From a virus, in the IMG/VR virus record IMGVR_UViG_3300021085_000220, positions 1-23,594 of that record: a DNA stretch of 23,594 nt; one strand, given 5' to 3'. The notes under the pieces were generated by a model. The model searched no databases. It was given only the letters and a program-made list of their open reading frames with translations, and was not told where the DNA came from. Of the stretch, positions 1-13,766 are shown one piece after another. The translations under genes and the position numbers were made by a program. Positions within the stretch are counted from its first letter, which is position 1, and the number at the start of each line of letters is the position of its first letter.

Positions 1-87
1 CCGCTTGACTTTAAGATACTCCTTAAATTCATTAGGGGTCATGTCTGCCGCTGTCTTAGATATTGTCTCTTGCCGTTCTTGCTTCAT
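1..87 (-). CDS. Unknown phage protein, N-terminal part (runs off the window)
   Basis: This is an open frame of 29 codons from an ATG at 87 to the window edge, beginning MKQERQETISK and continuing as a charged, soluble-looking protein. An SD-like GAGGGG lies about 3 bases upstream. It overlaps the end of the primase-helicase gene by 32 bp, which fits the overlapping style of this operon. The family is not recognisable from so few residues. Confidence 0.5.
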   Translation of the reverse strand, partial: MKQERQETISKTAADMTPNEFKEYLKVKR

Positions 88-2263
88 ATTCCCCTCTACT
101 CATTACGCCGTCTATAGTTCCGAGCCACTTACGCCCGCCAGTTGTTGAGAACGAGAACTTCTCTATGCGGCGCTCCGCGATAAGTTCCCGAACAATTTGG
201 TCTGCTGTATATTGGCTTATTCCAGCTAAAGAAGCTGGTGCCTCACTATCTGTCAATCTTTCTAAAATACTATCTGCACCACCACGCTGGCAAAGAGCCC
301 GACCATTACGCTCACATTCGGAAACCCAGTTTGCCATAGAATCTTTGCGTATCTGAGCCTGATTACTTTGCCCAAGGCTTAGAACTTGTTCGGTTCTGTC
401 CTCTAGCAACCCAGTAAGCGTGTTACGAATGAAGTGCCGTATGTCACGACTAGCAGGGCCGTTAGACTTAACCACGGCGCCGTCAAAGCAACGGTTGCGC
501 TGGTAATCAATGCCTAAGTCATTACAACGACCCTTAGATGTTTTCTCTTCGACTTGCCACACAGCAAACGCTGAACGAACCCCATCGACCAGAGCAGATG
601 TACCCCGAATCATATTACGCGCTTCTTCAGGCTTGGTTACAACCTTGTCGTCTTTTATCTTAGTCATATGGTGACAAACAAGAACTGCTGCACCAGTCTC
701 AGTTGCAACCCGAGCCAGAAGGCCCGTAAGAGCCGCACCAGCCGCTGGGTCAGCATTTACATCTGCGTGTACGAATGATGCTAGTGGGTCAAACACAATG
801 AGCTTCAGGTTGTCCATCTGAATCATTTGCTCGTAGATTTTTTTGAACTCGTCCGTTTCACTATATTCGCCCATTGATTCTCTGAGAATAGGGAAGACAC
901 CTCCCACGTTTGGTAACGGAACAACATGTAATTTGTTCGGGTACGAAAACCTAAGTCCTTCCTCGTCCAGTCGTTCAATTCTTCTGTGCATTTCCGATTC
1001 ATCATCTTCCGCAGTAAATAGAACAACATCACCAAACTCTCCTACAATACCACCGAATGAATTTTGCATGGGACTACCAGACGCAACCTTCATAGCCAAG
1101 TCCAATGTCATCATGCCCTTGCCTGAATCACCTGCGGCAGCAAAGATGATAGGAACCCCCAGAGGGAACGTACCATCAACCAAGAACTGCTGTTCAGGAG
1201 CAGAGCCGCTAAACCTAGATATAAGAAGGCTATCATTAAGAAGGTTAATACTACGATGCACAACACCTGCACCATCTTTAATGAATTGCTTCACATTGAA
1301 GCCTTCATCAATGGCGTCAGCCGCATCCCACTTGGACGGCTTGTCATGAGGTGGCTGTAGTATTGTTACTGAGTTCGCATCTGAGCCCATAGCAACTTCA
1401 CGAACAATTTCTGCTAGGCGCTTGCCAGCATCGTCATTGTCAGGCCATACGACTAAATCTTTGCCGCGCAAGGGAGTGAAGTCAAACTTCTCAGCGTTCT
1501 TGCGTGTAAGAGAACCAGCCCCGCCAAGCGTACAAGTAGCCGCCATTCCCTTGTCAACAAGAGCTTGAGCGCACTTCTCGCCCTCTACCCATATAACCTG
1601 CTGTTCGGATAAAATGTTCGGGATATTATATAGAGGCCTGATTTCAGGCGCTTTAGGATATGGCGAGCCGGGAACCCACGGACGGAACTCTTTCTTGCCG
1701 TCAATATCGTAGCGGCGCACGGTCACAAGAACCTCGCCGTCTCTGCTGATATAATCCCATTGCCCGTTATGTGGCGTGTTCGCATCAATACGAACCCTTT
1801 CCACTGAGGGAGTAGCCTTTGGTGTACTGGTGCCCTCTTTTGGTACACCGTTGCCAGCAGGAACCTTGTTCAGGTTCATTCCGCCTTCAGTACGCCATTC
1901 AGGTGCTGGTGGACGTATCGAATTGCTTTCCGATAAATAAGACCCGAACAACTCTTTTATGTCCGGCAGCCTCATGCCCCTAGCCTCCATCAATATCTTT
2001 ACGATGCCGCCGATACCAACGCCACCGTTAAAGTCTTGACCACGCATAAAGTGAGGACTGTTGTGATTGATGTCAATCTTCATGCTTTCGCCAGCTTCGC
2101 CAGCGAGTGAGCCGATAAAGAAGTCATTGCCTCTGATAACGCCATTAGGGAACGTATCCGATAGAACATTCACCTGAACGGAGCGAGGAACCTCTTTGCT
2201 TATTCTTTCTACTAAATCATGGGCATCACCAGATTTAGTGTTGTCAAATCGTATAACACTCAT
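56..2263 (-). CDS. TOPRIM primase / RepA-type helicase fusion
   Basis: This 735-aa protein looks like a bifunctional phage replication enzyme. Residues about 40-110 resemble the CHC2 primer-synthesis zinc region (GESMKID, then GGVGIGGIVKIL) but have no zinc cysteines. A TOPRIM domain follows, with acidic VEGEK at 226-230 and DNDD at 275-278. From about 355 there is a RecA/RepA-like ATPase: Walker A AAGDSGKGM with K382, Walker B LIVFD with D492, and a HH pair at 531-532 in VLVCHHMTK. The residue after the Walker A lysine is glycine, not the usual Ser/Thr. A C-terminal winged-helix-like tail (QYTADQIVRELIAERRI) is suggested. The domains predict a replication fork enzyme that unwinds DNA; whether it still primes without a zinc module is open. 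The start has AGGA 9 bases upstream. It is the last complete gene of the early operon. Confidence 0.85.
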   Translation of the reverse strand: MSVIRFDNTKSGDAHDLVERISKEVPRSVQVNVLSDTFPNGVIRGNDFFIGSLAGEAGESMKIDINHNSPHFMRGQDFNGGVGIGGIVKILMEARGMRLPDIKELFGSYLSESNSIRPPAPEWRTEGGMNLNKVPAGNGVPKEGTSTPKATPSVERVRIDANTPHNGQWDYISRDGEVLVTVRRYDIDGKKEFRPWVPGSPYPKAPEIRPLYNIPNILSEQQVIWVEGEKCAQALVDKGMAATCTLGGAGSLTRKNAEKFDFTPLRGKDLVVWPDNDDAGKRLAEIVREVAMGSDANSVTILQPPHDKPSKWDAADAIDEGFNVKQFIKDGAGVVHRSINLLNDSLLISRFSGSAPEQQFLVDGTFPLGVPIIFAAAGDSGKGMMTLDLAMKVASGSPMQNSFGGIVGEFGDVVLFTAEDDESEMHRRIERLDEEGLRFSYPNKLHVVPLPNVGGVFPILRESMGEYSETDEFKKIYEQMIQMDNLKLIVFDPLASFVHADVNADPAAGAALTGLLARVATETGAAVLVCHHMTKIKDDKVVTKPEEARNMIRGTSALVDGVRSAFAVWQVEEKTSKGRCNDLGIDYQRNRCFDGAVVKSNGPASRDIRHFIRNTLTGLLEDRTEQVLSLGQSNQAQIRKDSMANWVSECERNGRALCQRGGADSILERLTDSEAPASLAGISQYTADQIVRELIAERRIEKFSFSTTGGRKWLGTIDGVMSRGEYEARTARDNI

Positions 2264-2316
2264 TATATTGTATCCTGAAGCTTGTTGTTCTTTTCCTACA
2301 CGTTTCGTTTCACACT

Positions 2317-2344
2317 AAAGGGTCAGCTTCGGCTGGCCCTTTTT
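2317..2344 (+). terminator. Rho-independent terminator reading the plus strand
   Basis: An 11-bp stem (AAAGGGTCAGC with GCTGGCCCTTT) closes on a C(TTCG)G tetraloop, and the arm runs into TTTTT at 2340-2344. On the plus strand the only non-Watson-Crick pair is a T-G wobble (2323/2336). On the minus strand the same position is a C-A mismatch, the loop is CGAA and the tail is only TTTAG. The hairpin therefore works best against the direction of the flanking genes, with weaker function possible the other way. It sits just past the nuclease stop codon. Confidence 0.75.
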
Positions 2345-3132
2345 CATTTCCAACAAGTCTGGCGAAAGTCGCAAAACTTGCAGGTAAAGTAATCCGAGTT
2401 AGACGCAACCCGAGGAAGCATCTCACTTGCTTTTGTGGCTTGTAGTATCTCTACGCCTCTGTCACTTGTCCGCTGTGCAAGCCCTTTATCAAACGGAACA
2501 AGTTCGTAGTAGATTTCACTTGTATCCTTATTCATGACCGTAAACAAGGCTGGATTTTCTGTCAGGTCCATGTACGCCTGATACAAAGCTATTTGTGCGG
2601 CATATACAGGGTTAGCTTCCGCAACACCTTTCCGAACAAATTCACTAAACTTTTTGGTGTTCGCTGATTTGTTTTCCCAAAGGAATGGGTAGCCCATAGG
2701 AACTGGTCCCGAACAAATTACGCCGTCTATATGTCCCTTTATCTGCTCGTCCGCAACAGAGAAGCCAAACTGCTCACCATTCGAGTCGTGTGTCTTTAGC
2801 TCAAAGCCAGCATCAAGAAGGTACTTCGCAACCATGTCTTCAATCTGGTGCCCGAAGTCAAAGATACGCAACGTCCTAGCAGGGAACTGCTTAGATTCAT
2901 CTACAGGTGTTTGCATATAACGGTACTGAACCATTCTAGCGCACGAGCTGCCGAGAGATGAGCCGCCTAGATATTTACGGCTTGGCTGTGCATCATTCTT
3001 CTCACATATGGCCTTATCAACATTAAAGCTAATTAGCTCTATTGCATCAGAATGGTATTTCGTCGTCCGGGAATTCGTCAGGACTGGAGACAACCTTTTC
3101 GAGTTCAAAAAGTCCTTGTTCTGTATAGTCAT
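2344..3132 (-). CDS. Cas4/RecB-like PD-(D/E)XK nuclease with predicted 4Fe-4S cluster
   Basis: This 262-aa protein carries the complete RecB/Cas4 motif set: GHQIED with H95, GHIDGV with D136, the catalytic WENK (E153, K155), and the QIALYQAYM helix with Q180 and Y184. Four cysteines are placed as in Cas4 and AddB: C64 near the N terminus, and C251, C254 and C260 in YFTCKFCDFRQTCWK at the end. This predicts an iron-sulphur-stabilised exonuclease that resects DNA ends, in line with the Sak4 and SSB-like genes upstream. There are no cas1 or cas2 genes nearby, so a CRISPR role is not suggested. The ATG at 3132 has a weak GAGGG about 12 bases upstream and lies 86 bp inside the preceding gene. No later Met would keep C64. 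Confidence 0.85.
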   Translation of the reverse strand: MTIQNKDFLNSKRLSPVLTNSRTTKYHSDAIELISFNVDKAICEKNDAQPSRKYLGGSSLGSSCARMVQYRYMQTPVDESKQFPARTLRIFDFGHQIEDMVAKYLLDAGFELKTHDSNGEQFGFSVADEQIKGHIDGVICSGPVPMGYPFLWENKSANTKKFSEFVRKGVAEANPVYAAQIALYQAYMDLTENPALFTVMNKDTSEIYYELVPFDKGLAQRTSDRGVEILQATKASEMLPRVASNSDYFTCKFCDFRQTCWK

Positions 3133-3286
3133 CTGATAAATCCCTCACCTTTTGTATTACTGAAACAAGGCCCAACACCTCATCCTTTGAAAGGTCAGAT
3201 AACTTCTTATCCCACCCTATTACTCCGAAACATTTAGCCACTTCTTTTAGTGTACTGTCATCTCGTCTGGAAATATTATGTTGCAT
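3047..3286 (-). CDS. Small early protein with SSB-type acidic C-terminal tip
   Basis: This 79-aa protein is of unrecognised family. It has a predicted helical body (KEVAKCFGVIGWDKKLSDL, then DEVLGLVSVIQKV) and ends in DEFPDDEIPF, which closely resembles the acidic amphipathic tip of bacterial and phage SSB proteins (typically DDDIPF). It is too short for an OB fold. Its ATG at 3286 has a strong AAGGAGG, though about 13 bases away. It overlaps the preceding gene by 40 bp and the nuclease gene by 86 bp in another frame. The tip suggests that it docks on proteins that normally recognise SSB tails, or acts as a detached tail for the SSB-like protein in this operon; that is inference. Confidence 0.7.
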   Translation of the reverse strand: MQHNISRRDDSTLKEVAKCFGVIGWDKKLSDLSKDEVLGLVSVIQKVRDLSDDYTEQGLFELEKVVSSPDEFPDDEIPF

Positions 3287-3534
3287 AATCTTTTATCATC
3301 CTCCTTCTGTGGGTTAGCAAATGAGATATGGAAAAGCTCATCGTCTCCAACGACCATGTTAGCCACCCCTGTGCTAAAGTCTTCCATGTATTCTTGCGTA
3401 ATGTCTTCAACAAAATAGCCCATACTATCCATAATGTCGTCTTCATCTGCCGTTTCTGGAACGCTCAGAAATCCCTTAATCTCTTTCATTGGCTTGTCTG
3501 GAAAAAACAAGATAACATTTATTTCTATTCTCAT
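3247..3534 (-). CDS. Acidic 95-aa phage protein of unknown function
   Basis: This protein begins MRIEINVILFFPDKP and is rich in Asp and Glu (for example ADEDDIMDS and GDDELF), with no signal peptide, membrane segment or recognised domain. The start is firm: TTGGAGG lies 5 bases upstream of the ATG at 3534, and the preceding 58-aa gene ends at 3535, so the two abut as TAA-ATG. It overlaps the following 79-aa gene by 40 bp. The context is the early replication/recombination operon. The strong negative charge could suit a DNA mimic or inhibitor, but nothing in the sequence proves that. Confidence 0.7.
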   Translation of the reverse strand: MRIEINVILFFPDKPMKEIKGFLSVPETADEDDIMDSMGYFVEDITQEYMEDFSTGVANMVVGDDELFHISFANPQKEDDKRLCNIIFPDEMTVH

Positions 3535-3711
3535 TTATTCCTCCAAGGAACTAGCTTCACTGGACGGTAAAATCTTTTTATCTACATGCTTACCAGTTAT
3601 GTTTTCAGTGACGTTAGCATCTTGAAATCCATCATCTGGAAGGGATGCGGTAAACTCCTGCATCTTCCTTATCTGTTCAATTCTTTTTCTTTCGCGTTCT
3701 CTTTGAGACAT
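3535..3711 (-). CDS. 58-aa basic-to-acidic small protein
   Basis: This short gene is easy to overlook. The frame opens with MSQRERERKRIEQIRKM, a strongly basic helix, followed by a more acidic Ser-rich tail ending in EASSLEE. Its ATG overlaps the preceding stop by one base (TAATG at 3709-3713) and its stop abuts the next ATG, so it exactly fills the space between two other genes. That fit is the main evidence that it is real. The SD is poor, so translation probably depends on coupling to the upstream gene. The family is unknown; the basic helix could bind nucleic acid or a partner protein. Confidence 0.7.
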   Translation of the reverse strand: MSQRERERKRIEQIRKMQEFTASLPDDGFQDANVTENITGKHVDKKILPSSEASSLEE

Positions 3712-4070
3712 TACAAAGCAACCTGTATTAAGTCTGTTAAGTTTATCAAGAACCCTTTAGAAGAGTTATTGTCTCCGCCTTTGAATACATGGCTGTTCTC
3801 ATATGCTTTATTGCAAAGGGAGGTCAGCCTGTCCTTTGATACTATCAGGATTGGGCCAGTTGTAAAAACAAAAGCCCAAAAATCTGCATTTGTTGTTGTG
3901 ATGCCAGAAGGTTTGTTGCGGCACTCATACTCAATGAACACTCGTCCAGAGCGGTGCGCTATCTTATCGTGCTTTACTTCAATCTTTTTGTTCTGGAGCA
4001 AGTCGCCAAGAAATTGTTCGGCTACTTGGCCCACCAGAAGGTCATGCCCGAAGTCATTATTATAAAGCAT
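3711..4070 (-). CDS. Putative PD-(D/E)XK nuclease-like phage protein
   Basis: This 119-aa protein has an arrangement common to small phage nuclease-like proteins. A helix carries GQVAEQFLGDLL (E18), followed by a strand with IEVKHD (E31, K33, D35), then VFIEYE (E47, E49) and NADFWAFVF. The acidic residues and EVK are compatible with a restriction-like or resolvase-like active site, but the exact catalytic set cannot be fixed by eye. It begins 2 bases after the methyltransferase stop, so the two are co-transcribed. A methyltransferase/endonuclease pair of restriction-modification type is conceivable. A resolvase-like role in DNA processing is equally possible. Confidence 0.55.
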   Translation of the reverse strand: MLYNNDFGHDLLVGQVAEQFLGDLLQNKKIEVKHDKIAHRSGRVFIEYECRNKPSGITTTNADFWAFVFTTGPILIVSKDRLTSLCNKAYENSHVFKGGDNNSSKGFLINLTDLIQVAL

Positions 4071-4072
4071 AT

Positions 4073-4810
4073 CTAAATCATTTCTTTTATGGTGAGGCCA
4101 ATATTCATGGCAATTTGTGGAACGATTGCATTTCCTAATCCGGTGTTTCTGTCCACCCGATTGGGTATCCCATCAGCCACTCCATAAGGGCGGGATTCGA
4201 TTTTCCGCCATTGCCCTGTGTCAAATTCCTGCGCTCCTCTTCGGTCAGATGGCCTAGTTCTTTTAGCTTCGCCATCTTGTTGAAGTTTCCCGTCCCCCCG
4301 CAAAGTGCAGCGCCTGTCGTTGGCGTGGGCCACGATATAAATCCTGGCTCTTTCATGAATTGCGCCGACACTGTAAGCCGGTAGTAACATTGGGATTGCG
4401 GTGTAGTTTTCGGAGTGAAGGTCATTGATGACGGCATCAAGCCCGTTTGTGATATGTCCGCGAACATTCTCAAAAACGCACCAGTCAGGTCTTTTTGCGG
4501 AGATAATTTTTTTGATGTAGGGCCAGATATGTCGCTCGTCTTCTGTGCCTTTGCGGTTCTTAGATGCAAGGCTGAATGGCTGACAAGGGTATCCTGCGGA
4601 GAGGATTTGGCAATCGGGAACATTTCTTTCTGGGTCATCAGCTAAAGCCTTTACGTCCTCTGTTATGGGTACGTCAGGCCAATGCCTGGACAGAACCTTG
4701 CGTGACCAAGGCTCAATGTCACAGAACATGACAGGCTTTGACAGCCCAATTGTTTGGAATGCTAAAGCGAAGCCGCCGACGCCACTACATAAATCAACAT
4801 GTTTTAACAT
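4073..4810 (-). CDS. C5-cytosine DNA methyltransferase (Dcm-like)
   Basis: This 245-aa protein holds the ordered C5-methyltransferase motifs. Motif I is DLCSGVGGFALAF for AdoMet. Motif IV is GYPCQPFS with the catalytic C76. Motif VI is ENVR at 114-117. Motif VIII is HERARIYIVAHA with R155. Motif X is GLGNAIVPQIA at 224-234. The protein is short because the target-recognition region between motifs VIII and X has only about 60 residues; there (about 166-205) it reads as an unusual basic, low-structure stretch. It would methylate cytosine in phage DNA, most likely to avoid host restriction, or in host DNA. The ATG at 4810 has AGGAG and GAGGG upstream. A second frame inside this gene also looks conserved (see 4135-4638). 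Confidence 0.9.
   Translation of the reverse strand: MLKHVDLCSGVGGFALAFQTIGLSKPVMFCDIEPWSRKVLSRHWPDVPITEDVKALADDPERNVPDCQILSAGYPCQPFSLASKNRKGTEDERHIWPYIKKIISAKRPDWCVFENVRGHITNGLDAVINDLHSENYTAIPMLLPAYSVGAIHERARIYIVAHANDRRCTLRGDGKLQQDGEAKRTRPSDRRGAQEFDTGQWRKIESRPYGVADGIPNRVDRNTGLGNAIVPQIAMNIGLTIKEMI
4135..4638 (-). CDS. Overlapping +1-frame ORF inside the methyltransferase gene
   Basis: An open frame of 167 codons lies wholly inside the methyltransferase gene, shifted by one base. Its C-terminal part carries WPTPT at 103-107 and LMEWLMGYPIGWTE at 151-164. I recognise this pair from many phage proteins that are annotated as hypothetical or as methyltransferase-related. Between them it reads as ordinary protein (KMAKLKELGHLTEEERR), while the methyltransferase frame there looks unstructured. 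It stops at the start of methyltransferase motif X. No strong SD was established for the ATG at 4638. It may be a true overlapping gene, a frameshift product, or a relic; the family recognition is from memory and unverified. Confidence 0.35.
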   Translation of the reverse strand: MTQKEMFPIAKSSPQDTLVSHSALHLRTAKAQKTSDISGPTSKKLSPQKDLTGAFLRMFADISQTGLMPSSMTFTPKTTPQSQCYYRLTVSAQFMKEPGFISWPTPTTGAALCGGTGNFNKMAKLKELGHLTEEERRNLTQGNGGKSNPALMEWLMGYPIGWTETPD

Positions 4811-4833
4811 CTGCCCTCGCTCCTAAATAGGGT

Positions 4834-4861
4834 GGGTGGCTTTACGGCACTGGCGCCACCC
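4834..4861 (-). promoter_or_regulatory. Hairpin in the methyltransferase leader
   Basis: GGGTGGC at 4834-4840 pairs perfectly with GCCACCC at 4855-4861 around a 14-base loop. It ends about 24 bases upstream of the methyltransferase ATG. No T-run follows on either strand, so it is not a canonical terminator. A second, weaker pairing (CTAACG with CGTTAG, 4869-4898) lies just upstream in the transcript. This 100-base gap is by far the longest inside the early operon, so a leader structure that tunes methyltransferase translation, or an RNA processing site, is possible. Confidence 0.4.
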
Positions 4862-4911
4862 AAACCAGCTAACGACCTTAACTCAGGTTTGCCGTTAGTT
4901 CGCCTTTATTG

Positions 4912-5514
4912 TTATGCCTGTGCCCAAGCCGGAGCTACACCAGATGCAGGTGCAGTAGCTGGAGCCGCAGGTGCTAGTGACGCTGGGGCCATAGCAGGAG
5001 CATTGCCAGAAACGTAGTCGCTATTATCTGGCGTTAGAACAACAGTCATTTTGTTCTTAGCTGGGTAGCCATTATTCTCTGGCTCGACACCTACCAAGAA
5101 AGAAAACTCACAACCCTGCATATCTTGAATGCCTGAGATGTTTCGCTTCTGTTGCGCCTCTGGAGACATGTCGTTTGCCTTCAGATTATGAATGCTATCA
5201 ATCATGCGTCGAATTGTTTGCAAGCCGATGTTGCGAGCTACAGGTTGCCCGTTTTCATCCATCTTGTCGCCGTGAACAAAGAGCCTACTCCACACGCGGC
5301 GCTTGTCAAAAGACCCGCCGATAATGGTGAACTCCATGTCAGCCCAAATTGCGCTTGTGGTAGCTGAGTTCTTAAACAGCTTGCCATGCCCGAAGTCAGA
5401 CTTCTCTGTATCACCACCCGTAAAGTTGATGATAGCACGAACAGCAGTTTTGTCTGGAATGAGTTCCATAGTCTGGTTCTCAGTTCCTGTTGATACTTCA
5501 TTTAGATTAAGCAT
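4912..5514 (-). CDS. Single-stranded DNA-binding-like protein (DUF669-like)
   Basis: This 200-aa protein starts at the ATG at 5514, with GGAAGG about 9 bases upstream and an 8-bp overlap with the Sak4-like gene. A longer frame to 5589 would run far into that gene. The layout resembles phage SSB-like proteins of the DUF669 type: an N-terminal ELIPDKTAVRAII strand, a core reading FTIIGGSFDKRRVWSRLF, and a late strand reading CEFSFLVGVEPENNGYPAKN. It would coat single strands during replication and annealing next to the Sak4-like ATPase. The last 30 residues are a low-complexity Ala/Pro tail ending in PAWAQA, and the acidic tip typical of SSB is missing. The assignment rests on pattern and context. 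Confidence 0.65.
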   Translation of the reverse strand: MLNLNEVSTGTENQTMELIPDKTAVRAIINFTGGDTEKSDFGHGKLFKNSATTSAIWADMEFTIIGGSFDKRRVWSRLFVHGDKMDENGQPVARNIGLQTIRRMIDSIHNLKANDMSPEAQQKRNISGIQDMQGCEFSFLVGVEPENNGYPAKNKMTVVLTPDNSDYVSGNAPAMAPASLAPAAPATAPASGVAPAWAQA

Positions 5515-6373
5515 TTTCGGTATTTCCTTCCACCGCTTCACTAGGATTAACAAATTCGAGTGTACGTTCAGACTGCATCTTTCCGCCACTCATCTTCTCT
5601 AGAAGCCTACCAAGATGTGGCTCTTCTAGAGTATCAAGTCTGCCTGACCTGTCCTTGGCAGGGTATCCCCACTGGTTCAGTGTCTGACAAACAAACGCAC
5701 GATATGGGTTTCCATCTTCACTTGGCATAAGCGCCATAGTGATTACTTCGTCCACAATTCCAGGAAGTTCACGACCTGTCTTTGAGCCCTCAATTTGTAA
5801 CTCATAAGTCTCGCGTCCATAGTCATCAACCTTCTGGTCAAGGATGCCAACGAAGATTACGTTTTTATCCCTGATGTGCTGGAGATGGGACAACCATGCC
5901 ATCATCTCCCTGCCCTGCAAACCATATGCTGAACGTGTGTCCAGCTTACCAGTCCGCTCAGATTTACATTCGGGCTGGTTTTGGCAATGCTGAAAACAGA
6001 GCCTACCAGCAACCGTGATAGAGTCAACAAAGATTGTATCGTACTTAGATAGAATAGCTGTTGGGTCTCCATAAGTCTGACACACATAATCATAGTGTGC
6101 CTGACTGTATGTAGCGTCTTCGCCCAAAGATGGGTTTGGCCCACCTAAGAATACGGCGAAATCGCGGCACTCTTGCCATGTGCGAGGACGGATAACATCA
6201 ATGGCAACGCCTTCAATCGCCGCGTCACCCGCTTCCAAGTCCATGAACAAAGTCTTTGATGGGTCGAGTGTGCGAGCAAGAGATGTCTTGCCCACACCAG
6301 ACTGACCACAGATAACAATCTTGTGGCCCTTCTTTTCTTGGAGCCGTTGCTCCGCTGTAATAATATTAAGCAT
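5507..6373 (-). CDS. Sak4-like RecA-fold ATPase (single-strand annealing/recombination)
   Basis: This 288-aa protein is read from the ATG at 6373, which has GAAGGAA upstream and an 8-bp overlap with the preceding gene. A longer in-frame start at 6430 lacks support. Walker A is GQSGVGKTS (K29), followed by TLFMDLEAGDAA. Walker B is the hydrophobic strand YDTIFVDSI ending in Asp. A later strand NVIFVGILDQKVDD fits the RecA-like core of the AAA_24/Sak4 phage family. Sak4 proteins bind single-stranded DNA, work with a phage SSB, and promote annealing or strand exchange. Here the next gene encodes an SSB-like protein and a Cas4-like nuclease lies further down the operon, which supports a phage recombination module. 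Confidence 0.8.
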   Translation of the reverse strand: MLNIITAEQRLQEKKGHKIVICGQSGVGKTSLARTLDPSKTLFMDLEAGDAAIEGVAIDVIRPRTWQECRDFAVFLGGPNPSLGEDATYSQAHYDYVCQTYGDPTAILSKYDTIFVDSITVAGRLCFQHCQNQPECKSERTGKLDTRSAYGLQGREMMAWLSHLQHIRDKNVIFVGILDQKVDDYGRETYELQIEGSKTGRELPGIVDEVITMALMPSEDGNPYRAFVCQTLNQWGYPAKDRSGRLDTLEEPHLGRLLEKMSGGKMQSERTLEFVNPSEAVEGNTENA

Positions 6374-6803
6374 TATCCATTCCTTCAATGTCAACACTAA
6401 CGCCCTGCAAGTATACAGTACGAGCCTCACTTAAAGCCGCTTTGACTTCTGGTGGCGCGTTATTGTACTTGGCTTCTGGGATTGTGTATTTGATTTGAGC
6501 GTAATGCCGAGCGGTATCTTCATCCATACTATTAAGGACTTTAAGAAGCATACCTTCTTCCCATTCAACACGCCTACGGACATTAACCTTTAGCTTGTGC
6601 GCTCCATCCTCGATGGTGACACTACCAAAGTCTTTGCCCTGCTGCCGCAATGTATCTTGAGCCCTCTCAAGATAGCGACCCTCAAGCTCACTTTTAATGA
6701 GTTTGACCTTTTCCTGCGCCTCTACAATAATCCTGTCTAGCTCATTTTTGTAAATAGCTAGTTCAGGTAGAGAAGCAGATGATACAGAAGATGAATCTGT
6801 CAT
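6366..6803 (-). CDS. Coiled-coil early protein, first gene of the replication operon
   Basis: This 145-aa protein has a Ser-rich start, then a long predicted coiled coil (about residues 13-55, with KNELDRIIVEAQEKVKLIK). A compact C-terminal part follows, with KVNVRRRVEWEE, then PEAKYNNAPPEVKAALSEARTV. That last pattern recurs in phage proteins encoded beside Sak4-like ATPases (possibly DUF7173; unverified). The helix-plus-domain layout also recalls the Mu Gam nuclease inhibitor, but the resemblance is only general. It is the first gene after the promoter at 6837-6865, and AGGAG lies about 7 bases before the ATG at 6803. The function is unknown; a role with the following Sak4 and SSB-like proteins is inferred from position. 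Confidence 0.7.
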   Translation of the reverse strand: MTDSSSVSSASLPELAIYKNELDRIIVEAQEKVKLIKSELEGRYLERAQDTLRQQGKDFGSVTIEDGAHKLKVNVRRRVEWEEGMLLKVLNSMDEDTARHYAQIKYTIPEAKYNNAPPEVKAALSEARTVYLQGVSVDIEGMDNA

Positions 6804-8483: not shown

Positions 8484-8937
8484 CTGACAACGACCTCATC
8501 CGTGATACCAAACGTCTTGCGCGGTTCGGAACCTGAGTATACCAGCGGCTATCAACCATCTGGTCTGCCGCCTCGTTCCAATCACGAGCATCAACACCAG
8601 CCTTCATGCCCTTGAACTTGGACAGTCTAGGCCGACCCATGTTAAACATCATGTTGGCAACAATCTTCTGGCACTCGTCTGGTAGGTTAGCGAAGTCAGA
8701 GTACAGAGTCATGCAGTCGTTAATCGTGACAGCCATGTCCAGGTTAAATACCTGCTGTACCCGCTCCTGTTCGATTACTGTACCGACAGGCTTGCCATGT
8801 TCCTTGTCTTCTTTAGTCACCAAGTGACCTATGCCGAATGTAGGTAGGCCCAGATGGTCCAAATATATTTCGTACTTGCAGCCCTCGTCTTCAGCAAGCT
8901 CCTGACGAAGCTCGTTAAGCACTGTTGATTTCATCAT
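8470..8937 (-). CDS. T4-type lysozyme (GH24 muramidase), endolysin
   Basis: This 155-aa protein has the complete GH24 catalytic triad with T4 lysozyme spacing: E18 in AEDEGCKYE, D27 in IYLDHLG, and T33 in PTFGIGHLVTK. The downstream NMMFNMGRPRLSKFKGM and the closing DSRWYTQVPNRARRLVSRM are typical of the family. It cleaves the N-acetylmuramic acid to N-acetylglucosamine bond of peptidoglycan. There is no N-terminal signal or anchor, so it would need a holin, and none is visible in this window. The alternative is a virion-associated role, since it follows directly on the 988-aa ejection-like gene through an ATGA overlap (8934-8937). Confidence 0.92.
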   Translation of the reverse strand: MMKSTVLNELRQELAEDEGCKYEIYLDHLGLPTFGIGHLVTKEDKEHGKPVGTVIEQERVQQVFNLDMAVTINDCMTLYSDFANLPDECQKIVANMMFNMGRPRLSKFKGMKAGVDARDWNEAADQMVDSRWYTQVPNRARRLVSRMRSLSDGEA

Positions 8938-11900
8938 GGTTGTAGTAATCCTGCTGTTGGTCCCCGGATACCGAGTGCCTGGGCAATGCCAGGGTTCTGC
9001 GCTGCCTGCTGACGCAAATTGTTCGGGCCAGGGGCTACTGGTGCAACTTGCTGCGGCATAGCCGGAGAATTGTTCGGGGTTGGCTGCTGAATCTGCTGAC
9101 TCAAGTTAGATAGCTGCTGACTCAATCCTGAAGAGTCTGCAACTGCCCTGACTTGGTTTTCTACTTCTCTTTTACCTTCTTGTACGGACTGTCCAGTGCC
9201 TTGAGTAATAGACCTCATAGCATTAACCATAAGCTTTCCTAACATGCTTGCTCTTTGGTCTTGGTTAAGCCCAGTTTTCAACTTCTGGTAATCTTCCATT
9301 ATGCTTTTGTAGTAAAATTTAGAGCTGAATATTCTTCCCATAATACTGAGGCGAACAATTTTCTCTAAATTCTGCAAAGGTCCAGCTGCTATGTTTGCTG
9401 CTATCAAGTCACCGCCTGTAGCGGTTTGAGAATTTACTTTAAGCATCTTAGCAAACTTTACTAAATCTTCTCCATCTGCGTCCCCAAAGATAGCCTTTAA
9501 CTTGCCACCTTCATCAGCGTCAATAATCCTTTTAGCGAAAGCCGCTAAAGACTTACCGTCTGTTGTTACGCTGTCTCCAAAGTTAGAGATTAATCTCTCC
9601 ATGTAATTACCGCGTATTTTGCTGATAGCTTCTTCATTGCCTTCAAAAACATTCATTATTTGTTTAATGTCTTTAGGCTTTGTGGCAGCATCAGCAATTA
9701 CATCAGCCGCTTCTTGTGGGCGAAGGCCGCTGGCCCCGCCTCTCTGAAGTTTAAGAAGTGCCTGGCTAAGATTTTGAGTATGTATTGCTGACTGTGTTTC
9801 TGCCAAAGCTGTTAATTTATCAACTAAAGGAGCGCCCTCTCCGAGGTCTTCAGAAAGCTTCTTTATCACACTTGAATCTAAATTAGAAACCGATGTCTTT
9901 TCTATTGTGTCGGCAAGTTTTCTAATTTTGGCGGCATCAGGCCCGAACAGAACATCTGCTGTTCTTCCAAGGTCACGAACAGACTTAGCAAAAGCCGCAC
10001 CCTTAAATTTAGTTGGGTCAATGTTGTCGCCTGCTTTAAGACCTGAATTGGTAAGGGCATCATTAAGCCACTCACTGGCAACTTTTTGTCTGAATGCTTC
10101 TGATGACTGTATTTTTGCATCCTTAGATGCCCCATATTCAACAGCCTTTAACATTCTTTCTAGGACTAAAGGCTTGTCGTTCTTTATTATTTTGTCCAAG
10201 CGAATATCGTCAACGCCAGGGCTTTGACCGGTTCTTGCCTTGGCTCCAATGCTTTTAATAATTCCAGAGGACTCAATATCTTCAAATATTGTAGCGCCTT
10301 CATTATAGACTTTTCTAGCATTGTCTAATGAGTCAGACGCTCTTAACAGAACTCTTTTGTCCAAGTCAGTCAATTCGTCAGACGCCTCAATCGCCTCTTT
10401 CACAAAGTTTGTGTTAAGCTTAACATCTACTTTTCTAAGCAAATCATTAATTTCTTCACGCTCTGTTCTTTCGGTTGTTTTAGCTAATTTATCATTTAAA
10501 GTTTTTCTTAATTTGTATATTTGAATGTAAGAAGTCTTGTCTCCCTTCAAGGCATTAACAGCATCAAGAGCCTCTTTTAAAATAGGCAACGCTTTACCAG
10601 CTATACCAGTAACTTCATTATCCGCTATTTCTGCAGCTCTTGCTTTTATATTGCCTATCGGGATAATATTATATCCGCCACCAGAGCTTTCTAACGCATC
10701 GTCAATAGACTTAAAAGCAATAGATACTTCACTATCAAAAGCCTTTTGAGCATTGATTAGTATCTCAAATGTTTCTGTGTCGATGTCTACGTTCTTAGAT
10801 GCAGCCGCGCCAAGGTCATCTCCTAAAGCTCTTGCTGTCTGAAGAACCGATTGTTGGGCTTGTCTTTGTAACTCATCAAGTCTCTTGGCCTGCGCTCCTG
10901 TTGCCGACAGAAGCATCTGTCCGATTTCATCGTCATCGGCACCTGAGAACTTTGACCTAAAGTTAATAAGTTTTTGCTGTAAAACTTCAAAATTCTTTTT
11001 TAGACGAGGGGAAGAGCCAAAAACCTTTTCACCAATGGCCTGCTGCCTTGATATTAGCTGGTTAGCTCCGATAGCAGACAAGCTAGGAGCCATGCCAAGT
11101 TCTTTAAGCTCTCCTGTTACAGGGTCTACTTTTGCTCCACCTTCGATAAGAGCATCACCAATCTCAAGAATCTCTTCATCTGTCTTGCCTTTGCCAGGTC
11201 TTAGGTAGTTGCGACCTGCCCTAATACCGAAGCCAAACGTACCCAAGGTAACATCTGACAAAAATCCAATTGCAAACTCTTTTCCTAAGTCACCTACGAC
11301 CTCTTCGGCTGTTTGGTCTTGCACGCCGCCAATTGCTTCAACACCTTCTTCGACTGCTTGTCCTACAGCCGCTCCGGTGCCAGCGCCAACTGCGCTACCA
11401 AGTAGCATACCTAATGGTCCAAACGGCGCTCCAGCGGCAAAACCTTTTGCTGCGCCCGCAACACCGCCCACTACTTCAGGGACAATGCCAGCTAAGTCAG
11501 CTAAGTCATAACGACTGAACCCGCCTTCATCAATTAGTGTAGCCTTAGAAAGGTCCAGTCCAAGTTTCTTGCCACCAGACGGTGTGATAGCCAAGCGACC
11601 TCGTGAGTCACGGTCATAATCCTGTTCTGTAAGTCCGTAAAGCTCCCGAAGCTGTAGCTCTTCCTCTGCTGGTGTTTCAGCAGCGGATAGCTTTGCACGA
11701 AGCCCGGCGTCCTGAATACCAGAAGTAGTGTCGAACAGTTGTTCGTCTTCAGACTGCTTGGCCGTCTTAGATGAACTAAGGCCTCTTTGCTTTTCTCTAA
11801 TAACCTTGCCAATTTCAAACTTTTCTTTGGCTGTAGGCTGGTCTCCTGCAAACTCAAATCTAACTGTTTCATTAGGAAGTTCTAATAAAATCTGACCCAT
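8934..11900 (-). CDS. Large internal-virion/ejection-like protein
   Basis: This 988-aa protein begins MGQILLELPNETVRFEF, the short strand-rich start common to phage ejection proteins. Residues about 138-182 are a glycine-zipper hydrophobic stretch (VGGVAGAAKGF, then GSAVGAGTGAAVGQAV) able to insert into membranes. The rest is mainly long helices with coiled-coil character, and the last 100 residues are Gln/Pro-rich. Its size, its place between structural genes and the lysozyme, and the glycine zipper all point to a protein released with the DNA at infection, as with internal virion proteins of podoviruses. No lytic transglycosylase or peptidase motif was seen. GGAG lies 8 bases before the ATG at 11900. 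Confidence 0.6.
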   Translation of the reverse strand: MGQILLELPNETVRFEFAGDQPTAKEKFEIGKVIREKQRGLSSSKTAKQSEDEQLFDTTSGIQDAGLRAKLSAAETPAEEELQLRELYGLTEQDYDRDSRGRLAITPSGGKKLGLDLSKATLIDEGGFSRYDLADLAGIVPEVVGGVAGAAKGFAAGAPFGPLGMLLGSAVGAGTGAAVGQAVEEGVEAIGGVQDQTAEEVVGDLGKEFAIGFLSDVTLGTFGFGIRAGRNYLRPGKGKTDEEILEIGDALIEGGAKVDPVTGELKELGMAPSLSAIGANQLISRQQAIGEKVFGSSPRLKKNFEVLQQKLINFRSKFSGADDDEIGQMLLSATGAQAKRLDELQRQAQQSVLQTARALGDDLGAAASKNVDIDTETFEILINAQKAFDSEVSIAFKSIDDALESSGGGYNIIPIGNIKARAAEIADNEVTGIAGKALPILKEALDAVNALKGDKTSYIQIYKLRKTLNDKLAKTTERTEREEINDLLRKVDVKLNTNFVKEAIEASDELTDLDKRVLLRASDSLDNARKVYNEGATIFEDIESSGIIKSIGAKARTGQSPGVDDIRLDKIIKNDKPLVLERMLKAVEYGASKDAKIQSSEAFRQKVASEWLNDALTNSGLKAGDNIDPTKFKGAAFAKSVRDLGRTADVLFGPDAAKIRKLADTIEKTSVSNLDSSVIKKLSEDLGEGAPLVDKLTALAETQSAIHTQNLSQALLKLQRGGASGLRPQEAADVIADAATKPKDIKQIMNVFEGNEEAISKIRGNYMERLISNFGDSVTTDGKSLAAFAKRIIDADEGGKLKAIFGDADGEDLVKFAKMLKVNSQTATGGDLIAANIAAGPLQNLEKIVRLSIMGRIFSSKFYYKSIMEDYQKLKTGLNQDQRASMLGKLMVNAMRSITQGTGQSVQEGKREVENQVRAVADSSGLSQQLSNLSQQIQQPTPNNSPAMPQQVAPVAPGPNNLRQQAAQNPGIAQALGIRGPTAGLLQP

Positions 11901-11909
11901 TTAAAACTC

Positions 11910-13766
11910 CTAAGAAAGCTTGATAACTGTAATACCGTCTTTTGTTTGAGAGGTTTTCAGAGAACCTTTTCCTACCCCGATGGAACTGAGGGCGCTCGAA
12001 TTAATTTCAGCCTGAACCTTATCATAAAGATTTTCGTTTAGGTACATAGAACGGTCTTCAAACCTAACAAGTTGATTTTCTAAAGATTGGTTAGCTGACT
12101 CAAATATTTTTCTTGTTTCTGCCAACTGCTTTAAAGCCTGTTCTGGGTTTGTAAAGAAATCAATATTTCCAAGTGATTCAGCCAGTCTGTTTACATCACC
12201 CTCAGAAATACCGTTACCAGTTTCCTGCGTTAAGAACCTTTTATATTGAGCTATAACACGTTTTTTAATCGCGTCAGCTTCTGTCAATGGCCCAAGCTTT
12301 TCACCAGTTTGATAATTAGTGCCCATGTTTAGTCCAAGTGCGCTAAGTTTATTATCCCAAAATTCGTATAGTTTTTGTCCTGTAATACCCCCCGCTGAAA
12401 GTTTAGCGGCCTCACCTATTAAACCGGACATTTTATCAAGAGACGCTATGCCGTCTAATGAGTCTGAATAACCTTTTGCCAACAAGCTTACATCGCTTAA
12501 TGGTTTTGTAAAAACTTCTTGCCCATCACGCTTTCTATTAGCTATGTGAACTTTTATGTTTTTCATAGAAACTAAGGGCTCGTAAACCTTTTCTCCAGTG
12601 AAATCATACGCATCTTTTCCTGCTTCTATACCAGCAACCTTTAAAGCCGCGATTGCTTTCATGCGCTCTTTTTCAATATCAAGATTGTGCTTATCTTGTT
12701 GAAGAACGCGCTTGCCAACATAGTCAAGCTGCTTAACATTAAGGTCTTGTAGTCTTTTTTGTGCCGCCGCAAGGGTTGCTGCCTGCGTAGCTGCTGCTGC
12801 CTTTCTTTCTTGAAGGCCGTACTTACCAGCCGCTATGCGATTAGCACGAGCAGTCTCTTTGGCTTTCTGGAATGCTGGAGCAGCCGCTGTACCTGCTTCA
12901 CCTAGAGCGGAAAGAGCTTTAGATACATCAAAGCCTTTACCAGCCTTGTTCTGCATGAGAGCTAGACCAAACGCCATAAGAGCCTGAGACTTGTCAGCCT
13001 TACCATCAATGCTAACACCAGTAGCTTCAGCAAACTCCTTCATATAATCTTCTGTCTTTTTGGCGTCAGGGTCTCCGCCTTTAAGGGACTCAACATCCCT
13101 CATAGCCTTTTCAATTTCTTCACGATACGGGTCAAACGCCTCTTCTGAGTCGCCATCAAGGTCATCATTAATAGCGCGTCCAGCACCGCCAAAAGGCTCT
13201 AATGGGTCGTCTTTTGGAGGCTTATCACCTAATTCTGACAGGTCTCCTTCAAGGTTGTTTAGCGCATTCTGTGTGGCAAACCCTAAGTCGTCATCATAAT
13301 CTTCCATTGATTCGGGAGTCGGCCCCTCTATAAACTGACCACTTCCACCGAAAGGCTCAAGACCAGTAACGTCACCACCGAACCCACCGAATCTACCAAG
13401 GTCCATTTCATTTTTCAGTCTGTTTGCCTGCATCTGATTGGCTGTCTTTTGGTGTCGGTTGTATATACCACCAAAGAAATCCATTACTTCACCCACTACA
13501 GGTGGGGTTGGCGCGTTGGGATTTGTTACCCTAGCCGAACTAACAAGAGAGTCTACTGTCGGCGTCCCAATGTCACCTTGAGGAGCCAGTCCCGCTGCCG
13601 CTCTATAAGCATCAAGGGGCTGGGGAAGCCCAAGGTAATTATCCATTCTTTCTTGTGCGCTTCTTCTTGCCACCGTGTTTACACCGGAATCGAGATTAGA
13701 GCGTGATTGACCGCCTCCAGGCTGAAGGTAGCTTGTTTGAAAGCCTTTATTTATACCACTAGCCAT
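11910..13766 (-). CDS. Internal-virion-like structural protein
   Basis: In this 618-aa protein, an N-terminal Gly/Asn-rich part leads to a markedly acidic middle that contains two copies of LEPFGG(S/A)G about 50 residues apart. An Ala-rich helical stretch follows (KAAAATQAATLAAAQKRL). The C-terminal third has a folded look (LTEADAIKKRVIAQYKRFL, then ETGNGISEGDVNRLAESLG) that I associate with structural proteins of uncultured marine phages. No catalytic motif was found. It lies in a block of four similar-sized Gly/Ala-rich genes, and GGGAG precedes the ATG by 6 bases. An ejection or internal core role is inferred from order and composition. Confidence 0.5.
   Translation of the reverse strand: MASGINKGFQTSYLQPGGGQSRSNLDSGVNTVARRSAQERMDNYLGLPQPLDAYRAAAGLAPQGDIGTPTVDSLVSSARVTNPNAPTPPVVGEVMDFFGGIYNRHQKTANQMQANRLKNEMDLGRFGGFGGDVTGLEPFGGSGQFIEGPTPESMEDYDDDLGFATQNALNNLEGDLSELGDKPPKDDPLEPFGGAGRAINDDLDGDSEEAFDPYREEIEKAMRDVESLKGGDPDAKKTEDYMKEFAEATGVSIDGKADKSQALMAFGLALMQNKAGKGFDVSKALSALGEAGTAAAPAFQKAKETARANRIAAGKYGLQERKAAAATQAATLAAAQKRLQDLNVKQLDYVGKRVLQQDKHNLDIEKERMKAIAALKVAGIEAGKDAYDFTGEKVYEPLVSMKNIKVHIANRKRDGQEVFTKPLSDVSLLAKGYSDSLDGIASLDKMSGLIGEAAKLSAGGITGQKLYEFWDNKLSALGLNMGTNYQTGEKLGPLTEADAIKKRVIAQYKRFLTQETGNGISEGDVNRLAESLGNIDFFTNPEQALKQLAETRKIFESANQSLENQLVRFEDRSMYLNENLYDKVQAEINSSALSSIGVGKGSLKTSQTKDGITVIKLS

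Follow-up and report, generated by a model that had tools for sequence, protein, structure and literature searches.

A phage C5-cytosine methyltransferase gene with a nested +1 reading frame for the probable specificity half of the enzyme

Analysis of a C5-cytosine DNA methyltransferase locus in a virus record (IMGVR_UViG_3300021085_000220, analysed over its whole 23,594 bases and termed the window below) indicated that positions 4810-4073 are very probably one gene for a two-subunit enzyme like M.EcoHK31I, of which the beta subunit would supply target recognition and motif IX. The open reading frames (ORFs) for alpha (4073..4810, 245 aa) and beta (4135..4638, 167 aa, ATG start) are both on the minus strand, as are all features of the locus given below, and beta is contained entirely within alpha, in the +1 frame of the latter. 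There is little doubt that this second frame is a genuine gene, and its product is most likely the half of the enzyme that determines specificity. A first-pass annotation made from the sequence alone had noted the 167-codon +1 ORF at 4135-4638 and its end at the start of motif X; the ORF coordinates confirmed the former, and the last sense codon of beta directly abuts GLGNAIVPQ. A precedent exists in M.EcoHK31I, and what seems new is the breadth of the family across many phages and prophages, the short recurring modules of beta, and the evidence for assigning the recognition segment to beta.

Alpha matched PF00145 (E 4.5e-33; alpha residues 3-169 on profile positions 2-168 of 324, covering motifs I-VIII) and phrog_363 (E 1.9e-60). 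The catalytic motifs of C5 methyltransferases were all present in alpha and, as the first-pass annotation had stated, intact in frame 0: motif I (DLCSGVGGF, 4769..4795), motif IV with the PC pair and the catalytic Cys (AGYPCQPFS, 4571..4597), motif VI (ENV, 4463..4471), motif VIII (HERARIYIV, 4331..4357), and motif X (GLGNAIVPQ, residues 224-232, 4115..4141). In a 30-sequence alpha alignment that included the window, the invariant residues were D6, L7, C8, S9, and G10 (motif I), P75 and C76 (IV), E114, N115, and V116 (VI), H152, R154, and R156 (VIII), and G224, L225, G226, N227, I229, and P231 (X). The alpha chain is without a recognition domain and motif IX, and motif IX is found instead in the +1 frame. 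AlphaFold2 modeled alpha residues 1-166 with ten-residue mean pLDDT values of 63-98 and the motif X helix with 88-94; values for residues 167-227 were below 50, in agreement with the earlier description of an unstructured stretch in frame 0. The best structural matches of the model were M.HhaI chains, including 2i9k_A (Z 22.9, 191 residues, rmsd 2.6), on which alpha 1-245 aligned to HhaI 11-322 with low-confidence stretches left out. Since alpha models as the large domain of M.HhaI plus the motif X helix, it would represent a large domain without its small domain, with beta as the candidate for the missing piece; unlike alpha, M.HhaI is described as a single chain that includes the small domain (PMC3404938).

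Judged from the window by itself, an open +1 frame of this length is barely unusual, as a run of the same or greater length occurred in 1.9% of 1000 synonymous-codon permutations of alpha (p = 0.019, marginal), and the case rests on the relatives, which put it far beyond chance. A viral-contig search with alpha as the sole query, blind to beta, yielded 79 loci of which 76 were examined (L039, L041, and L043 were left out), and three of these alpha ORFs were cut by a contig end. The longest +1 run lay over the same stretch in all 73 complete ORFs (164-316 codons vs. 32-115 for the +2 runs), had a length that none of 200 permutations matched in 66 and at most five matched in the other seven, and ended in motif-IX sequence in 72, the exception being L113 where both frames had shifted together. 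Fairly long +1 runs were also present in two of seven single-chain controls (L219, 143 codons, p 0.001; L215, 143 codons, p 0.041), and length alone is therefore a weak argument.

The frame of each motif was located in 196 loci plus the window, of which 18 were without a full alpha N-domain and one was without a profile match. The resulting 178 sequences comprised 104 viral-contig loci, 69 bacterial genome loci, four phage loci (four of ten beta-hit phage loci passed the full-N-domain filter), and the window, with some duplicates; the bacterial genome loci were selected with beta, such that only the viral set is unbiased. In 171 of the 178, motif IX lay in the +1 frame and motif X lay in frame 0, and the alpha ORF was continuous through motif X in 168 of these 171. 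The remaining seven included two that end at a contig edge, three with motifs IX and X shifted together (L113, L117, and L119), and two with both motifs in one frame (L134 and L148). None of the 178 sequences had motif IX sharing a frame with both the alpha N-domain and motif X. A beta-profile draw of 101 genomes gave two matches, one of which was the centre genome itself.

The constrained frame switches twice along the gene, from frame 0 for motifs I-VIII to +1 between VIII and IX and back to frame 0 for motif X, which bears out the first-pass claim that different segments are constrained in different frames. In 50 non-overlapping pairs picked greedily out of 2,724 in-range pairs of 134 distinct sequences, where large indels may misalign columns, substitution rates at frame-0 positions 1/2/3 showed the usual frame-0 pattern in the 5′ part covered by alpha alone (.128/.071/.367) and around motif X (.128/.083/.367). 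From motif VIII to motif IX they were.337/.140/.122, as for a gene read in +1, and within motif IX.254/.071/.074. Motifs IV-VIII were intermediate, with the third-position rate down to.262 and then.190. The rate at position 1 exceeded that at position 3 in 44 of 50 pairs between VIII and IX (six did not) and in none of the 50 in the 5′ part, and a set of 15 pairs (gaps at most 60, four sharing L044) agreed with this frame switch. As the constrained frame between VIII and IX is +1 and not frame 0, the recognition segment would be placed in beta and not in alpha. The same switch was visible between the window and its relative L044 (74.5% DNA identity), as alpha residues 164-203 were 47% identical in frame 0 vs. 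82% in +1, with flanks of 77% vs. 38% and 67% vs. 24%.

Both frames are under selection. Among 21 loci of <60% alpha identity (22 non-redundant loci minus L167, which contains N), conservation in +1 exceeded codon-randomised nulls with z values of 10.7, 22.7, 6.1, and 43 across successive segments of the overlap but not in the flanks (-0.5 and 1.4). The +2 frame was also over the null in the overlap, to a lesser extent (z 4.0, 8.5, 2.1, and 19.5; flanks -1.9 and 2.2) and while carrying 4.7-13% stops, as expected because the same bases are constrained. Stop codons in the +1 frame of homologues, named in the first-pass annotation as potential counter-evidence, made up 0-0.5% of codons in the overlap vs. 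4.8% and 7.1% in the flanks, and this check thus did not count against dual coding. When beta residues were kept and their codons randomised, the alpha frame was often interrupted in the VIII-IX segment (summed log10 p -28.8 over the 21 loci; p 0.14 in the window alone), and alpha is therefore under selection for openness up to motif X. Alpha residues 167-203 (4202..4312), for which pLDDT was below 50, form the corresponding linker of the window, in which frame 0 is open and, by the L044 comparison, scarcely constrained.

The start of beta is conserved. Across 56 distinct loci (excluding duplicates, open ORFs, L072, L113, and L115), the +1 run started near alpha residue 56 and a beta start codon occupied the second codon of the run in 54 and one of its first six codons in all 56 (ATG in 49, GTG in six, TTG in one), preceded in every case at 4-16 nt by a Shine-Dalgarno-like motif (AAGGAG in 33, AAAGG in 22, AGGT in one). 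The window has AAAGG (4648..4652, within alpha) nine bases before the beta ATG. Frame-0 lysine codons among the seven codons that precede the beta start were AAG in 55/56 vs. 274/626 elsewhere in alpha. Two polypeptides via internal initiation would be likelier than a programmed frameshift because of this conserved start with its Shine-Dalgarno-like site and the +1 constraint upstream of motif VIII.

A single chain produced by two programmed frameshifts, from frame 0 to +1 near motif VIII and back to frame 0 before motif X, nevertheless mirrors the order in which the constrained frame changes, and single-chain C5 enzymes (L215, L211, and L219) do hold motifs IX, X, and the catalytic motifs in one frame. 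This explanation is improbable: +1 is already constrained well ahead of motif VIII (z 10.7 and 22.7), where a shift would not yet be useful, the internal start is present in 56/56 loci, and frame 0 is selectively held open over the linker, for which a double shift has no use. In addition, the second product is annotated as its own gene in TygerBlood, where the overlap is 26 nt, and in Jamun, where there is none. Of the three interpretations offered by the first-pass annotation, true dual coding is strongly supported, a programmed frameshift swapping the C terminus is disfavored on the same grounds and by motif X requiring a second shift back, and the descent of one protein family from another through a frameshift was off the mark, as the products look instead like complementary pieces of one enzyme.

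In the two-subunit enzyme, the alpha chain would form the large domain with motifs I-VIII and X, and beta would be translated in +1 from the internal ribosome-binding site and the ATG at 4638 to contribute the small domain, which comprises motif IX and the segment for target recognition. The two chains would then join into an active enzyme whose methylated sequence is set by beta, and methylation would most likely shield the phage DNA against host restriction. The alpha frame between VIII and X would be a passenger linker of which openness alone is needed, keeping motif X on alpha.

Beta consists of an N-terminal part, one WPTP module, and motif IX. In family searches of both translations, where alpha reached PF00145 and phrog_363, beta matched phrog_1008 “DNA methyltransferase” (E 1.5e-17) with no meaningful Pfam match. 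The phrog_1008 family was matched by all 32 members of a beta alignment and none of these 32 betas reached a Pfam family, their N-terminal part being extra, conserved, and without a known family. The Pfam candidates NS1_C (0.059) and CNP1 (0.049), each from one beta of the 32, were below any cut-off. A beta profile searched against PDB sequences returned nothing relevant, with the CRISPR protein Csf1 at E 0.52 and 0.58 taken as chance. The WPTPT and LMEWLMGYPIGWTE strings reported by the first-pass annotation were both found in +1, and the WPTPT segment, probably for target recognition, is directly ahead of motif IX (NPALMEWLMGYPIGWTET; LMGYPIGWTE; 4144..4197). The motif IX assignment was derived from the +1 conservation (z 43) and from hhalign of the beta profile against six single-chain proteins, in which the motif-IX segment was the sole alignment, motif on motif, with E 0.00096 and a probability of only 22%. 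Single-chain methyltransferases in overlap-carrying genomes have YLTERETERAMGLPDGWTEF, RLTPTEAERLQGYPDGWTEA, and RLTELECERLQGFPDGWTDI as their motif IX. Modeled alone with AlphaFold2, beta gave no confident fold (pLDDT 49, pTM 0.21), which would fit a need for the partner in folding but does not count as evidence for it.

A real beta that is no subunit, for instance a separate phage protein with an anti-restriction or regulatory role whose frame overprints the methyltransferase, could account for the extra N-terminal part, which is conserved and of no known family, and the physical association of alpha and beta is itself a prediction. The chance of this is nonetheless small, as beta has the motif IX that is absent in alpha and occupies the place expected of the recognition domain, and the +1 product also bears motif X in four actinobacteriophages. 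Finally, it is scarcely credible that the +1 frame is a by-product of frame-0 motifs and codon bias with alpha working alone, given that the mild departure of the window alone (p 0.019) and the dictation of some +1 residues by frame-0 motifs (e.g., the VAHAN bases giving WPTPT) are set against frame 0 being the unconstrained frame between VIII and IX in the pairwise rates and the L044 comparison, +1 modules of the same kind recurring in distant loci, codon-randomised nulls exceeded with z up to 43, an alpha that would be without a recognition domain and motif IX, and a contradiction at the level of selection by the null-model and pairwise results, provided that the alignments are right.

The two-subunit reading gives the segment between motifs VIII and IX a candidate role in specificity. 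Among 134 distinct betas, this segment held zero to six W[PA]TP-type modules with a median of 41 aa (45 betas had one and three had none by the pattern). The window has one such putative target-recognition module (WPTPTTGAALCGGTGN...TQGN, 4210..4332), of a cluster type present in 13 loci with alpha N-domains down to 35% identical. After clustering of modules of at least 20 aa at 60% identity, the 25 clusters present in at least three loci were inspected; module clusters recurred in different slots, and the widest-spanning ones occurred with alpha N-domains that are only 35-66% identical. The recurrence of modules in distant loci suggests an exchange of recognition modules, and the W[PA]TP-type modules may be what sets specificity. 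The C5 methyltransferases of Bacillus phages (SPR, phi3T, and relatives) are multispecific single chains with several recognition domains in a row of ~40 residues each; the betas of the relatives similarly have up to six short modules in a row, although these are in a separate nested subunit.

For the wider reading, the prospects are evenly balanced: the locus may belong to a widespread phage and prophage family in which the +1 subunit is an exchangeable specificity cartridge, its one to six ~41-residue modules recombining among very different alphas over a near sequence-free alpha passenger, and in which dinucleotide repeats may switch frames in some bacterial copies. If the cartridge reading is true, specificity could change while the catalytic protein stays as it is, much as the HsdS subunits allow in Type I systems but here within a single gene. 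If the two-subunit reading is right, many phage genes of the nested type that are annotated as “cytosine methyltransferases” encode just one half of the enzyme, the specificity half being concealed in +1 and often left without annotation; a codon-optimised alpha clone would destroy beta and should yield an enzyme without activity. As a pair of overlapping genes on one strand, the locus is also unusually clear, with two changes of the constrained frame inside one gene, and it is a test bed for nested-gene evolution with one frame nearly free.

Among known systems, the window would be best filed with the M.EcoHK31I-type two-subunit enzymes. The original M.EcoHK31I paper (NAR 1995) is said to have beta read from another frame inside alpha, as the small subunit of the window is within the large one. 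M.EcoHK31I (YGGCCR) is summarized as two polypeptides, the large one with motifs I-VIII, X, and a predicted recognition domain and the small one with only motif IX (PMC3404938), and has been termed naturally split (PMC3439449). The window shares the distribution of motifs in this account, with I-VIII and X in the large subunit and IX in the small one; compared by description, it differs in that the recognition domain of M.EcoHK31I is predicted (in itself a prediction) to be in the large subunit (PMC3404938) and the constraint data here point to beta. As outlined in the same source, M.AquI consists of two subunits and is divided within the variable region, past motif VIII (PMC3404938). Its small subunit holds both IX and X; the window would share the division after VIII but has motif X in alpha. 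When C5 enzymes are cut in two between motif VIII and the recognition domain, the halves are reported to complement efficiently (PMC5944983), which fits a division of alpha and beta after VIII. As to finding M.EcoHK31I itself among the relatives, no restriction gene was annotated beside the related loci in two plasmid regions. By title and abstract, no description of a nested two-subunit methyltransferase family was found among the open-access papers listed.

Both frames were open over the overlap in all ten phage regions picked among 32 beta-hit records. The second frame had previously been annotated in some of these phages, as “g62 internal gene” in Lily and “Mte8-like” in K1ind1 and fTaEco03. 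Lily g62, the Kagunavirus “Mte8-like protein,” and gp57 of Paenibacillus phage Bloom are the same nested +1 ORF as in the window, annotated by others as “hypothetical protein,” “Mte8-like,” or “methyltransferase” with no mechanism assigned. In Xanthomonas phage FoX4 (L005, MT161385; 1842-2567), the +1 beta ORF alone is annotated as “hypothetical protein” and the 235-codon open methyltransferase frame is unannotated; the same match is named “DNA methyltransferase” in the RefSeq copy NC_055839.

Ten further phage regions were picked from alpha hits, with Lucky2013 among them but outside the class counts. Zerg, Bloom, Lc-Nu, and ZQ26 were nested like the window, and Klebsiella phage phiKp_23 had a conventional single-chain enzyme whose +1 frame was not long (86 codons, p 0.246). 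In the actinobacteriophages Phanphagia, TygerBlood, Dylan, and Jamun (L231, L232, L233, and L239), alpha stops soon after motif VIII and the +1 ORF has WPTP-type modules, IX, and X, a layout like that of M.AquI with the second gene in +1. Their adjacent “DNA methylase”/“DNA methyltransferase” gene pairs look like halves of one split enzyme, and the conserved +1 sequence in TygerBlood and Jamun starts well upstream of the second gene as annotated.

Several bacterial copies deviated from the nested layout. In L134 (2112-3324), motifs IX and X are both in +1 and the alpha frame stops after VIII, resembling the actinobacteriophages. The Clostridia loci L117 (3388-3661) and L119 (3349-3669) have a first motif-IX-like segment (MMGYQRAFTQL and LMGYEQAFTQL, respectively) and then a normal motif IX after both frames rotate. 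Dinucleotide repeats were found downstream of motif VIII in L119 (3486-3507, (AG)11) and L148 (2307-2330, (CA)12), with the frames displaced downstream of them, and slippage at these repeats could act as an on/off switch of the enzyme or change its specificity.

Elsewhere in the window, two large ORFs at 8934-11900 (988 aa) and 11910-13766 (618 aa) had no PHROG match at 1e-5. The methyltransferase neighborhood is a replication/recombination block (56-6430) that includes a primase/helicase (56-2263), a Cas4-domain exonuclease (2344-3132), and a Sak4-like annealing protein (5507-6430).
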